NCBI GenBank assembly: GCA_903889745.1 | Contig: CAISYO010000043.1 | Location: 1-35,270 of the forward strand | Origin: an uncultured Bacteroidota bacterium | GTDB taxonomy: Bacteria; Bacteroidota; Bacteroidia; Flavobacteriales; Flavobacteriaceae | Direction of reading: 5' to 3' | Length of the DNA: 35,270 bases | In this document: positions 2,016 through 7,775 of the stretch, piece by piece | How the letters are laid out: each line of letters opens with the position of its first letter | How positions within the stretch are numbered: position 1 is the stretch's first letter | The notes under the pieces: model-generated | The model's database searches: none | Told to the model about the DNA's origin: nothing | The model's input: only the letters and a program-made list of their open reading frames with translations | Program-made: the position numbers and the translations under genes

Positions 2016-5000
2016 TTGGAGGCAAAAAACATTATTTTCGATAAACTCGAAAGATTTATCAAAAAGTTTTATACTAATGAACTGATAAAAGGAATCATTC
2101 TTTTTATTGGATTAGGCCTGTTGTATTTCATTGTTACCTTATTGATTGAATACTTTTTATGGTTGCCAACTTCTGGAAGAACCATTTTATTTTGGCTGTT
2201 TGTTGCGGTTGAATTGTTTTTGTTGATTCGATTTATTGCATTTCCGTTGTTCAAGTTAGTAAAACTTCAAAAAGGGATTGATTATGAACAAGCTGCAACA
2301 ATAATTGGCAATCATTTTTCGGAAGTACAAGATAAGTTGTTGAATTTTTTACAATTAATAGACCAAAATCAAACTTCCGAATTATTAGCAGCATCTATAG
2401 AACAAAAAGCCGCTTCATTACAACCCATTCCATTTTCAAACGCTATAAATTTTGCTAAAAACAAAAAGTTTTTACCTTATACTATTGTGCCTGTACTGCT
2501 TTTAATTTTGTTTTTTGTAACCGGAAATTCTTCAGTAATATCAAGTAGTTTTGCTCGCGTTGTAAATTATAAAACAAAATATGCGCCTCCTGCACCTTTT
2601 GAGTTTGTGGTTATGAACACTTCATTAACGAGCCAACAAAACACCGATTTTATTTTACAAGTTAAAACAAAAGGGTCAGTAATTCCTGAAAATGTAGTTA
2701 TTCAAATAGGATCTGAAGAATATTTTCTACAGAATACCAAACCAGGTTTTTTTGAATATACGTTTTCAAAATTATCAAAGGATGTTGTTTTTTCGCTTCA
2801 AGCAAATGGATTAAATTCTAAAGAATATCAAATTAAAGTAATTGACGTGCCTACGATTACTGACTTTAAAATGATTTTGAACTATCCTTCTTATTTAGGA
2901 AAAAAACCAGAAACAATTCAAGGATCTGGAAATGCCTTAGTACCTGAAGGAACGATTATCGATTGGAAAATAAATGCTGTTGCAACGGATAAAATTCTAT
3001 TAAAAACAGGCAGTCAAATTAGTCTGTTTGAACTTAAATCTAATAAGTTTTCCATTACTAGAAAAATTGTAGACCAATTAAACTATGAGGTAATTACGTC
3101 CAACCGAAAAGTTACTGAATTTGAAAAGTTAGGTTATCAAATTTCTATTATCAAAGATCAATTTCCTAGTATTTCAGTTCAAACCGCACCTGATTCGCTT
3201 AAATTAAAAACCAAATTGATTTTAGGTCAAATTTCTGACGATCACGGTTTATCAAAATTACAAGTGGTTTTTTATCCTAAGGACAATCCAAAAGCCATTC
3301 GCAAAGCAAACTTATCCATAAAAAAACAAGCAGTTGACCAATTTATCTATTCGTTTCCAAACGGATTAGTAATTGATAAGGGTGTAAATTATGAATATTA
3401 CTTTGAAGTGTTTGATAATGATGTAGTTAATAATTTTAAAAGCACAAAATCGGCTGTTTTTTATCATTATGAACAAACGGAAGAACAAAAAGAAGATCAG
3501 CAACTTAAAGAGCAAAACGAAAACATCAACAGCATAGAAAAGTCGCTGCACAATCAAGATAAACAAATAGCAGAACTTGAAAAGCTGCAAAAAATAAATA
3601 AAGAGAAAACCAATTTAGATTTTAAAGATCAGAAAAAATTAGAAGATTTTATCAAGCGTCAAAAACAACAAGACGAAATGATGAAAGAATTTACTAAAAA
3701 GCTTTCTGAAAATTTAGAAGAGTTTAATCCTAAGAAGCAAGATAAAGAAAAAGAAGAACTACTTCGAAGACTAGAAGAGGCAGAAAAACAATCGGAAAAA
3801 ACCGAAAAATTACTTAAAGAATTAGAAGAGCTTTCAAAGAAATTAGAAAAAGAAGAGCTTTTTGATAAAGCCGATAAGTTAAAGCAAAACGCAAAAAATC
3901 AGCAACAAAATTTGGAGCAATTGGTAGAATTAACCAAACGTTTTTATGTGGAAAAAAAGGCCGAACAATTAGCCGATAAACTTGATAAACTATCGGATAA
4001 ACAAGAAAAATTAGCCAATAGCGAAAAAGAAAATACCGCTGAAAAACAATCGGATATTAACGACGCTTTTAAAGACATTCAAAAGGAACTTCAAGATTTA
4101 GACCAAGAAAATAAAGATTTAAAAGATCCGCTGGACATTCCAAATGACAAGAATGAGCAAGAAGATGTGAAAAAAGATCTTCAAAAGGCAGCAGATGAGT
4201 TGAACAAACAACAGCCTAAAAAAGCGCAACCTAAGCAAAAATCGGCAGCCGCCAAAATGAATGAAATGAGTCAAAAAATGGCTCAAGCTATGGATTCGGG
4301 CGAAATGGAGCAAATGCAAGAAGACGCAAAGTTACTCCGACAAATTTTAGATAATTTACTAGCCTTTTCATTTGACCAAGAGCGATTAATTAAAACCACA
4401 AACACAGCGCAAACACGTTCTTTAGAACTAAATAAAGTCCTTAAAAAACAACAAGATTTAAAACAACAATTCAAACATGTTGATGATAGTTTATTTGCTG
4501 TTTCCTCACGAAACCCGCGCATTACCGAAATCATTTTAAAAGAACTGAGCGATGTTCATTATAATTTAGATAAAACTTTAGAATCGTTAGCCGATAACAA
4601 CATTTCTAAAGGAGCATCACATCAACAATATACACTTACAGCAGCTAATCGTTTGGCCGATTTTTTAAGTAACGTGCAAAGCCAAATGAATATGGACATG
4701 CAAGGGCAAGGACAGGGCAAACCGAAACCTGGAAAAGGACAAGGTTCTGGAATGCAATTACCAGATATTATCAAGAAGCAAGTAGGGTTAGGCGAAAAAA
4801 TGAAGGACGGAATGAAGCCTGGTGACAAACCCGGAGAGCAGCCTGGCGACAAATCTGGAGAAGGCAAACAAAAAGGAAAGACAGGAAAAGGAAGTTCAGG
4901 TGATGAAAACTCGGAAGGAGAAGGTGGTTCGGAAGGAAATGCTGGAAAAGTGTTAGATATTTTGAAAGAGCAAAGACAGCTTCGTGATGCTTTACAAAAA

Positions 5001-5345
5001 GCACTTGAGAAAGAGGGCATGATGAATCAAGGCATGAACGCGTTACAGCAAATGAAAGATATTGAAAAGCAATTAATCAATAAAGGCTTTAAAAACGAAG
5101 TGCTTCAAAAAATGCTAAATTTAAAGCACGAACTTTTAAAACTTGAAAACGCTATTCAGCAACAAGGCGAAGACACGAAAAGACAATCAAACACAAATGA
5201 TAAGTCTTTTAATAATAACACCATGCCGCTTTCAAAGGAGTTGAAAGAATATATTAATAGTGTTGAAATATTAAACAGACAAAGCTTACCTTTGCAACCC
5301 AATTTTAATCAAAAAGTTCAAAACTATTTTAAAAAGAATGATTAG
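2016..5345 (+). CDS. DUF4175 family large membrane protein with coiled-coil and low-complexity C-terminal region (TTG start)
   Basis: 1109 aa; two N-terminal TM segments (IKGIILFIGLGLLYFIVTLLIEYFLWL), a further TM, Glu/Lys/Gln-rich coiled coil, then a Gly/Pro/Lys-rich tract; gene context before ybeY-mnmG. Confidence 0.8.
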   Translation: MEAKNIIFDKLERFIKKFYTNELIKGIILFIGLGLLYFIVTLLIEYFLWLPTSGRTILFWLFVAVELFLLIRFIAFPLFKLVKLQKGIDYEQAATIIGNHFSEVQDKLLNFLQLIDQNQTSELLAASIEQKAASLQPIPFSNAINFAKNKKFLPYTIVPVLLLILFFVTGNSSVISSSFARVVNYKTKYAPPAPFEFVVMNTSLTSQQNTDFILQVKTKGSVIPENVVIQIGSEEYFLQNTKPGFFEYTFSKLSKDVVFSLQANGLNSKEYQIKVIDVPTITDFKMILNYPSYLGKKPETIQGSGNALVPEGTIIDWKINAVATDKILLKTGSQISLFELKSNKFSITRKIVDQLNYEVITSNRKVTEFEKLGYQISIIKDQFPSISVQTAPDSLKLKTKLILGQISDDHGLSKLQVVFYPKDNPKAIRKANLSIKKQAVDQFIYSFPNGLVIDKGVNYEYYFEVFDNDVVNNFKSTKSAVFYHYEQTEEQKEDQQLKEQNENINSIEKSLHNQDKQIAELEKLQKINKEKTNLDFKDQKKLEDFIKRQKQQDEMMKEFTKKLSENLEEFNPKKQDKEKEELLRRLEEAEKQSEKTEKLLKELEELSKKLEKEELFDKADKLKQNAKNQQQNLEQLVELTKRFYVEKKAEQLADKLDKLSDKQEKLANSEKENTAEKQSDINDAFKDIQKELQDLDQENKDLKDPLDIPNDKNEQEDVKKDLQKAADELNKQQPKKAQPKQKSAAAKMNEMSQKMAQAMDSGEMEQMQEDAKLLRQILDNLLAFSFDQERLIKTTNTAQTRSLELNKVLKKQQDLKQQFKHVDDSLFAVSSRNPRITEIILKELSDVHYNLDKTLESLADNNISKGASHQQYTLTAANRLADFLSNVQSQMNMDMQGQGQGKPKPGKGQGSGMQLPDIIKKQVGLGEKMKDGMKPGDKPGEQPGDKSGEGKQKGKTGKGSSGDENSEGEGGSEGNAGKVLDILKEQRQLRDALQKALEKEGMMNQGMNALQQMKDIEKQLINKGFKNEVLQKMLNLKHELLKLENAIQQQGEDTKRQSNTNDKSFNNNTMPLSKELKEYINSVEILNRQSLPLQPNFNQKVQNYFKKND

Positions 5346-5757
5346 TTTTAATTACGAAACAAATTTCGCCTTAGAAAACGAATCTAATTATGAAGATTGG
5401 ATTACAAGAATAATTTATTCTGAAGGATTTGAGGCAGGCGAAATCAATTATATTTTTTGTGACGACGAATATTTGCATAAAATTAATATGGAATATTTAA
5501 ATCACGATACATTAACAGATATTATCAGTTTTGATTATTCTGTAGGAAATTTATTACAGGGCGATATTTTTATTTCGGTAGAACGAGTAGCTGATAACGC
5601 TAAAGATTTTAATGTTGCTTTCGAAGAAGAATTGAAAAGGGTTTTATCTCACGGTGTTTTACATTATTGCGGCTATAAGGATAAATCTCCTAAAAACGAA
5701 GCTTTAATGCGTAAAAAAGAAGAAGAGAAAATGAAAATGTTTCACGTGGAACAATAA
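5338..5757 (+). CDS. ybeY: Endoribonuclease YbeY (rRNA maturation factor)
   Basis: HGVLHYCGYKDKSP metal-site region, YbeY fold; overlaps the upstream ORF by 8 bp. Confidence 0.92.
   Translation: MISFNYETNFALENESNYEDWITRIIYSEGFEAGEINYIFCDDEYLHKINMEYLNHDTLTDIISFDYSVGNLLQGDIFISVERVADNAKDFNVAFEEELKRVLSHGVLHYCGYKDKSPKNEALMRKKEEEKMKMFHVEQ
5738..5753. promoter_or_regulatory. parS-like ParB binding site TGTTTCACGTGGAACA, within the 3' end of ybeY
   Basis: Matches the widely conserved parS consensus (TGTTNCACGTGAAACA type) at 16 bp. Confidence 0.85.
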
Positions 5758-5780
5758 GTTTGCAAATTATAATTTTTAAA

Positions 5781-5796
5781 TGTTTCACGTGGAACA
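5781..5796. promoter_or_regulatory. parS-like site TGTTTCACGTGGAACA in the ybeY-mnmG gap
   Basis: Identical 16-mer to the site at 5738. Confidence 0.87.
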
Positions 5797-5810
5797 TAAA
5801 AAAAATAAAG

Positions 5811-7682
5811 ATGTTTTTAAATCAGTATGATGTAATTGTTGTTGGTGCTGGTCATGCCGGATGTGAAGCTGCTGCTGCTGCTGCCAATATGGGTTGTTCT
5901 ACATTATTGGTGACAATGAATTTACAAAACATAGCTCAAATGTCTTGCAACCCGGCTATGGGCGGAATTGCTAAAGGGCAAATTGTAAGGGAAATTGACG
6001 CAATGGGTGGTTATTCAGGAATTGTTTCAGACAAGACGGCTATTCAGTTTAAAATGTTGAACAAATCTAAAGGCCCTGCAATGTGGTCGCCTCGAGTTCA
6101 ATCGGACAGAATGCGTTTTTCGGATGAATGGCGTAGCATGTTGGAGAACACTCCTAATCTTGATTTTTATCAAGAAATGGTAGCTGGATTACTTTCCGAA
6201 AATGGAAAAATCACAGGCGTTAAAACATCATTAGGAGTTTCAATTAAGGCTAAATCGGTAGTATTGACTAACGGTACATTTCTTAATGGATTAATTCATA
6301 TTGGAGAAAAACAATTTGGTGGAGGTCGCGCAGGAGAAAGTGCCTCTTTTGGAATCACCGAAGATTTAGTACAACTTGGTTTTGAATCAGGCAGAATGAA
6401 GACAGGAACTCCACCTCGTGTTGATGGGCGTTCATTGGATTTTTCTAAAATGACTGAGCAACCTGGAGATGATGTTCCAGAAAAATTTTCTTATACAAAT
6501 CTAACCGCTCCTTTAAAAACACAACGCTCATGTTGGATGTCATATACATCGTTAGATGTGCACGATATTTTACGCGAAGGGTTCGATAGAAGCCCAATGT
6601 TTAACGGAAGGATTAAAAGTATTGGACCAAGATATTGCCCTTCAATTGAAGATAAAATTAACCGTTTTGCCGATAAAGAAAGACACCAACTTTTTGTGGA
6701 GCCTGAAGGATGGACCACATGTGAATATTACATTAACGGTTTTTCAACTTCTTTGCCTGAAGATATTCAATTTAAAGCATTACGTTCGGTGGCTGGTTTT
6801 GAAAATGTAAAATTTTTCAGACCTGGATACGCCATTGAATATGATTACTTCCCTCCTACGCAGCTGCAACACACTTTAGAAACTAAATTAGTGGAAGGAT
6901 TGTATTTTGCAGGTCAAATCAACGGAACTACAGGTTATGAAGAAGCGGCTTCTCAAGGATTAATGGCCGGAATTAATGCAGCTTTAAAGGTGCAAAATCG
7001 CGAACCATTTATATTAAAAAGAGACGAAGCTTATATTGGAGTTTTAATCGATGATTTAATTACAAAAGGAACTGAAGAACCATACAGAATGTTTACTTCT
7101 CGTGCCGAATATAGAACCTTACTTCGTCAAGATAATGCCGATTTTAGATTAACGCCTAAAGCATTTGAAATAGGTTTAGCCAAAGAAGAACGATTGATTC
7201 GAATGGAACAAAAGTTTGCTCAATCGGATGCAATGGTAAATTTCTTTAGAGAGACTAGTTTAAAACCCGAAGAAGCAAATCCAATTTTAGAAGCAAAAGG
7301 TTCTGCTCCTATGAGTCAGCCCGATAAAATGTTTAAGGTGTTTTCTCGTCCGCAATTGGATTTAGAAGATTTTAGAAAATTTAGTAAAGTTGCAGCATAC
7401 ATCGATGAGCATAATTTAGATCAAGAAGTAGTTGAACAAGCAGAAATTCAAGTTAAATATTCAGGATATATCGAAAAGGAAAAAAACAACGCCGACAAGT
7501 TAACTCGTTTGGAAGACATGATTATCCCAGATAATTTCAATTTTGATACTATCCAATCGATTTCAATAGAGGCCAAACAAAAATTAAATAAAATTCGCCC
7601 AAGAACAATAGCACAAGCTTCAAGAATTAGCGGTGTTTCGCCAAGCGATATTTCAGTTTTGTTGATATATATGGGGAGATAA
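5811..7682 (+). CDS. mnmG: tRNA uridine-5-carboxymethylaminomethyl(34) synthesis enzyme MnmG
   Basis: MFLNQYDVIVVGAGHAGCEAAAAAANMGCSTLLVT FAD-binding N-terminus, MSCNPAMGGIAKGQIVREIDAMGG, CPSIEDKINRFADKERHQLFVEPEG. The track start at 5760 is an upstream TTG; ATG 5811 preferred. Confidence 0.98.
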   Translation: MFLNQYDVIVVGAGHAGCEAAAAAANMGCSTLLVTMNLQNIAQMSCNPAMGGIAKGQIVREIDAMGGYSGIVSDKTAIQFKMLNKSKGPAMWSPRVQSDRMRFSDEWRSMLENTPNLDFYQEMVAGLLSENGKITGVKTSLGVSIKAKSVVLTNGTFLNGLIHIGEKQFGGGRAGESASFGITEDLVQLGFESGRMKTGTPPRVDGRSLDFSKMTEQPGDDVPEKFSYTNLTAPLKTQRSCWMSYTSLDVHDILREGFDRSPMFNGRIKSIGPRYCPSIEDKINRFADKERHQLFVEPEGWTTCEYYINGFSTSLPEDIQFKALRSVAGFENVKFFRPGYAIEYDYFPPTQLQHTLETKLVEGLYFAGQINGTTGYEEAASQGLMAGINAALKVQNREPFILKRDEAYIGVLIDDLITKGTEEPYRMFTSRAEYRTLLRQDNADFRLTPKAFEIGLAKEERLIRMEQKFAQSDAMVNFFRETSLKPEEANPILEAKGSAPMSQPDKMFKVFSRPQLDLEDFRKFSKVAAYIDEHNLDQEVVEQAEIQVKYSGYIEKEKNNADKLTRLEDMIIPDNFNFDTIQSISIEAKQKLNKIRPRTIAQASRISGVSPSDISVLLIYMGR

Positions 7683-7685
7683 AGG

Positions 7686-7754
7686 AGTATTAAGACCGAA
7701 GACTCAAGTATTAAGATTTTTTGTCTTAATACTTAATACAACAATCTTAATACT
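7686..7754 (+). repeat. Nested inverted repeats of AGTATTAAGA (two direct, two inverted copies); possible terminator of mnmG
   Basis: AGTATTAAGA at 7686-7695 and 7707-7716; TCTTAATACT at 7724-7733 and 7745-7754; the inner pair extends to an 11-bp stem with a 7-nt loop. Confidence 0.9.
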
Positions 7755-7759
7755 AAAAA

Positions 7760-7775
7760 TGTTTCACGTGAAACA
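7760..7775. promoter_or_regulatory. parS-like site, perfect palindrome TGTTTCACGTGAAACA
   Basis: Perfect 16-bp palindrome matching the parS consensus. Confidence 0.9.

Follow-up and report, generated by a model that had tools for sequence, protein, structure and literature searches.

Palindromes flanking mnmG

The window, that is, the whole stretch of 35,270 nucleotides analysed here, contains ybeY and mnmG on the forward strand, together with three copies of a 16-bp palindromic sequence arranged around mnmG:

5338–5757, + strand: ybeY (endoribonuclease YbeY; Pfam YbeY, E = 3e-28), the last codons of which form putative parS copy 1
5738–5753, no strand assigned: putative parS copy 1, TGTTTCACGTGGAACA, an exact match that overlaps the 3′ end of ybeY
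5781–5796, no strand assigned: putative parS copy 2, TGTTTCACGTGGAACA, an exact match that ends 14 bp before the mnmG ATG
5811–7682, + strand: mnmG (gidA; Pfam GIDA, E = 1e-164), ATG at 5811 and stop at 7682, bracketed by the putative parS copies
7760–7775, no strand assigned: putative parS copy 3, the perfect palindrome TGTTTCACGTGAAACA, an exact match located 78 bp past the mnmG stop

An earlier note on this DNA had described three parS-like 16-mers, two of them 27 bp apart before mnmG and one, perfectly palindromic, after it. This description was accurate in all respects: TGTTYCACGTGRAACA matches exactly at 5738–5753, 5781–5796 and 7760–7775, the two copies 5′ of mnmG are separated by 27 bp and deviate from a perfect palindrome at one position, and the copy 3′ of mnmG is fully symmetrical. 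A parS site is a TGTTNCACGTGNAACA palindrome in which one or two bases may vary, and all three copies match it exactly. Copy 1 also encodes the C-terminal residues of YbeY, M-F-H-V-E-Q-stop.

From the base composition, 8.5e-10 exact copies are expected per site, corresponding to 3e-5 in the window, 1.7e-6 in the 2-kb stretch and 0.002 in the genome, and none of 100 dinucleotide shuffles of the window attained the four matches observed at up to three mismatches. A chance origin is thus very unlikely, as the earlier note had argued. In the assembly of this genome (2,276,128 bases in 331 contigs, 88.5% complete), the only exact copies are these three, which span 2.04 kb; further matches, at two mismatches, are isolated and dispersed. 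A weak site inside gltX (1385–1400) was not counted because it has two mismatches and is shared with the nearest relative (L039) alone. A terminator scan detected no terminator-like site at the palindromes. Between the mnmG stop and copy 3, the window also contains a perfect inverted repeat, AGTATTAAGA-TTTTTTG-TCTTAATACT (7707–7733), which is the only one of its kind in the window and is too A+T-rich for the terminator scan.

ParB and the distribution of the sites among relatives

The sole ParB of the genome is encoded on contig C84 (TIGR00180, E = 7e-51), directly after parA, forming one chromosomal-type parA–parB pair that is not on the mnmG contig. Among solved structures, the top hit for this ParB is 7bnk, a 'ParB family protein' (E = 1e-52) that we take to be Myxococcus ParB, followed by Spo0J/ParB proteins of other bacteria; Noc structures are also among the matches. 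The protein has the boxes QPRTNF, GERR and ENIQRHDLDPIE, which are known from CTP-binding ParB. Published work on ParB specificity places conserved DNA contacts at Q162, G170, K171, S172, N178 and R204, and describes the R173 and G201 pair as the mark of parS versus Noc-site recognition (the parS-specific RXXG class), position 179 as almost free and position 184 as free (PMC7383237). Direct alignment yielded Q162, G170, K171, Q172, R173, N178, Y179, K184, G201 and R204 for the protein on C84. Judged by these residues, it belongs to the parS-specific RXXG class with one shared contact (172) changed, and the sites thus share a genome with a ParB that has parS-type recognition residues.

Exact copies, one to five per genome, were present in all 60 same-genus genomes, none of which matched a reversed control pattern. 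Coordinates were listed for 25 of these relatives, and each of the 25 has its copies in a single cluster of at most 2.4 kb, so that the sites are few and clustered, as parS sites are, both in these relatives and in the assembly studied here. The two observations that the earlier note had named as counting against parS, an even scatter of the motif over the genome and the absence of ParB, were therefore not made: copies in the assembly occur only here, the cluster is single and tight in 25 of 25 relatives, and a parB gene is present on C84.

The association with mnmG extends beyond the genus. Across 80 mnmG loci (1.58 Mb), 188 of 196 sites with no more than one mismatch adjoin mnmG and 8 lie elsewhere; two control patterns gave 0 and 1 matches in the same DNA. 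Sites flank mnmG on both sides in 66 loci, upstream only in 7 and downstream only in 3, and are missing from 4, which places a site upstream in 73/80 and downstream in 69/80; many are within 16 bp of the start or stop codon. The mnmG-bracketing layout is common across the bacterial order. In 31 of the 64 relatives with a recognised ybeY, parS is inside the 3′ end of that gene, and the resulting YbeY tails mostly read (M/L)FHVE(Q/H/R), for example, KMFHVEQ and QMFHVEH. In many Flavobacteriaceae, YbeY owes its MFHVEQ-type C terminus to the embedded parS.

In Tenacibaculum and Polaribacter, the mnmG-flanking sites have decayed to one to three mismatches. Altered sites in some lineages have CACATG centres (Kordia and locus L081) or differ by one base in the centre (Polaribacter). 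Lineage-specific parS-like variants (TGTTCCACATGGAACA, GTTTCATGTGAAAC and TGTTCCTCGTGGAACA) occur beside mnmG at loci L070, L081, L274–L279, L087 and L095, and are possibly accompanied by matching changes in ParB.

Whether the sites follow ParB or mnmG can be read from 39 genomes belonging to other families of the order, in which the motif was scored at up to one mismatch. parB is present in 34 of these genomes, and the motif in 32 of the 34 (chance matches occur at one mismatch). The remaining five, endosymbiont-sized genomes of one family (0.3–0.6 Mb), have neither parB nor the motif (0/5), and all five retain a full-length mnmG; sites and parB therefore co-occur. Moreover, a Capnocytophaga MAG (G103) has two exact copies and one near-exact copy within 316 bp off its mnmG contig, a Bacteroidota MAG (G105) has three exact copies within 6.3 kb on a different contig from mnmG, and the mnmG loci of both are without sites. 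Because the motif is lost with parB despite the retention of mnmG, and because clusters occur elsewhere in G103 and G105, the sites track ParB and not mnmG, which is a usual, non-obligatory neighbour.

Position relative to the replication origin

GC skew and third-position skew were sampled in complete same-genus chromosomes, the assembly of this genome being in 331 contigs. Five of them (G035, G008, G031, G032 and G042) show a sign change near the cluster, whereas the skew of G018 is too weak to judge. In G035, every sample as far as 1.385 Mb gave a negative skew and those from 1.560 Mb onwards a positive one, with parS at 1.569 Mb, dnaA at 2.658 Mb and parB at 2.831 Mb. For the six same-genus genomes that are complete, the distance around the circle between the cluster and parB or dnaA is 0.8–1.3 Mb, and an origin at dnaA was ruled out by skew in five complete relatives. 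Finer sampling in two genomes placed the skew minimum upstream of the mnmG start, at a distance of 16.1 kb in G035 and 15.9 kb in G008. The link to the origin that the earlier note had predicted thus stands at the level of the origin region, by sign change in five relatives and at fine scale in two; at the finer scale, the cluster is about 16 kb off the inferred origin.

In both finely sampled genomes, the minimum lies within the roughly 1-kb gap that separates the leftward rpiB from the rightward rnr, where gene direction switches:

L198, approx. 4246–5265 (G035:C1:1553246–1554265): rpiB–rnr gap in G035

This gap is noncoding, has 77% A+T, is about 70% identical between G035 and G008 over 939 aligned columns and contains the 9-mers TTATCAACA, TTATTAACA and TTGTCAACA. 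The same noncoding stretch is also located ahead of rnr in G010, G024, G031 and G032 (L294, L295, L296 and L297), where 14–18 kb separate rnr from mnmG or from the parS cluster. On these sequence features we propose the gap as a candidate oriC of Flavobacterium; as G018, G042 and other families either lack it or are rearranged at rnr, the proposal is limited to six same-genus genomes. The RNase R gene (rnr) was not found in the 331 contigs of the 88.5% complete assembly studied here, and 240 bp of the candidate oriC are matched at C138:9651–9890 with 95% identity. The left end of the window is about 5.8 kb upstream of mnmG, and the candidate oriC would therefore be beyond it.

In other phyla, ParB at parS usually has a second task, the loading of SMC. 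In seven same-genus genomes, including this one, no protein passed the threshold of TIGR02168, the model for canonical SMC (best 37 bits versus a cut-off of 567), a search that 10 of 14 control genomes passed and that covers the canonical family as distinct from MksB/MukB-type condensins; the canonical SMC that a parS–SMC loading site presupposes was thus not found. For Bacteroides caecimuris and Muribaculum intestinale, PMC10197239 states that no known condensins are present. Given this report and the TIGR02168 result, the mechanism here probably does not involve SMC loading at parS. The chromosome condensin of this genome and of the six other same-genus genomes was not identified by TIGR02168.

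A putative ParB loading zone and its alternatives

Together, these data indicate that the palindromes are very probably the chromosomal parS centromere of this Flavobacterium-like bacterium, which ParB would recognise and clamp onto for ParA-driven segregation of the origin. The reading of the sites as a parS cluster, put forward in the earlier note, is well supported by comparison with relatives, and it gains from the uniqueness of the sites in the assembly and from the parA–parB pair elsewhere in it. We strongly infer that the ybeY–mnmG locus is the predicted ParB loading zone. In brief, each 16-mer would be read by the helix-turn-helix of the ParB encoded on C84, which would form a CTP-bound clamp at parS and then slide into adjacent DNA; ParA would move the ParB-coated stretch, and the freshly replicated origin region would thereby be the first to segregate. 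These steps, from binding and clamping to spreading and transport by ParA, are expected by analogy with the ParB family.

The close attachment to mnmG, with both-sided sites in 66/80 loci that are often within 16 bp of the start or stop, might also suggest local operators or RNA signals for mnmG or ybeY that serve an ordinary regulator and have no role in segregation. Sites flanking both ends of a gene would be odd for an operator, however, and neither the five small genomes that have mnmG without parB and the motif nor the exact clusters of G103 and G105, which are off the mnmG contig and leave the mnmG locus bare, agree with regulation of mnmG. Moreover, the motif is the exact ParB consensus, the genome's own ParB has the matching specificity residues, and the terminator scan revealed nothing terminator-like at the sites. 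We therefore consider local regulation as the function of the sites highly improbable.

The palindrome could alternatively be read as paired DnaA boxes (TGTTTCACG) of oriC. This has a precedent in Bradyrhizobiaceae, in which predicted oriCs beside gidA, where the skew switches, contain TGTTTCACGTGAAACA, read by Ori-Finder as two DnaA boxes (PMC2275245); the sites in the relatives studied here are likewise near the skew origin. Unlike in Bradyrhizobiaceae, the inferred origin in these relatives is about 16 kb off, with both the skew minimum and the change in gene direction (two relatives) in the rpiB–rnr gap, whose boxes are of the TTATCAACA/TTATTAACA type. The palindromes do not coincide with a skew minimum bearing canonical DnaA boxes, and such boxes (TTATCCACA, up to one mismatch) occur 10 times in the window versus 10.3 expected. 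The motif also vanishes along with parB, and a review gives the identical 16-mer as the Hyphomonas ParB site and a near-identical one for Caulobacter. It is very unlikely, in our assessment, that the sites are DnaA boxes.

Noc is a relative of ParB, and Noc structures among the matches to the genome's own ParB raise the question of whether a Noc-like paralogue binds the sites to control division and not segregation. The sole ParB-type protein found has R173/G201, not the Q173/R201 of Noc, and the sites here form one cluster, whereas PMC4331003 describes Noc sites as scattered around the chromosome. We give this possibility almost no credence.

parS is a long-established element, of which Livny 2007 is said to be the original survey. 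The proposed parS cluster resembles the chromosomal ParABS systems of Bacillus, Caulobacter, Hyphomonas and Myxococcus in its palindrome (consensus TGTTTCACGTGAAACA), in its clustered copies near the origin, in its one parA–parB pair and in its ParB of the RXXG class. It differs from them in that the sites are apart from parAB and dnaA (in complete same-genus relatives) and that canonical SMC was found in 0/7 same-genus genomes. According to PMC10197239, parS clusters and GC skew have been used to place origins in Bacteroidetes and gut bacteria, dnaA not always being an origin marker. Its example of Bacteroides caecimuris, from a different class of the phylum, combines a parS cluster with a skew-placed origin, as here, and we found no mention of an mnmG bracket in the passages concerned. 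A literature search, which did not reach Livny 2007, found no description of Flavobacterium parS. New here are the conserved mnmG bracket, the separation from parAB and dnaA, and the lack of a canonical SMC hit, an arrangement that we did not find described.

As a speculative extension, which we think rather unlikely to hold as a whole, mnmG may be a fixed seat of the centromere across Flavobacteriales, with parS kept just before its start and just after its stop although parAB and dnaA have drifted; ParB might work without canonical SMC, through ParA alone or an unknown condensin, and the sites may tune mnmG expression. The proposed ParB–parS system would offer a tractable case without a recognisable SMC, plus a 1-kb candidate oriC. 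The parS cluster could also serve to mark the origin region in genomes of Flavobacterium, for which dnaA is a poor guide, and the choice of marker affects skew plots, coverage-based estimates of replication rate and genome rotation. Of the six same-genus relatives with complete genomes, four have a record that starts at dnaA; in these, the parS cluster is about 0.9–1.1 Mb distant, as is the inferred origin where the skew is readable.
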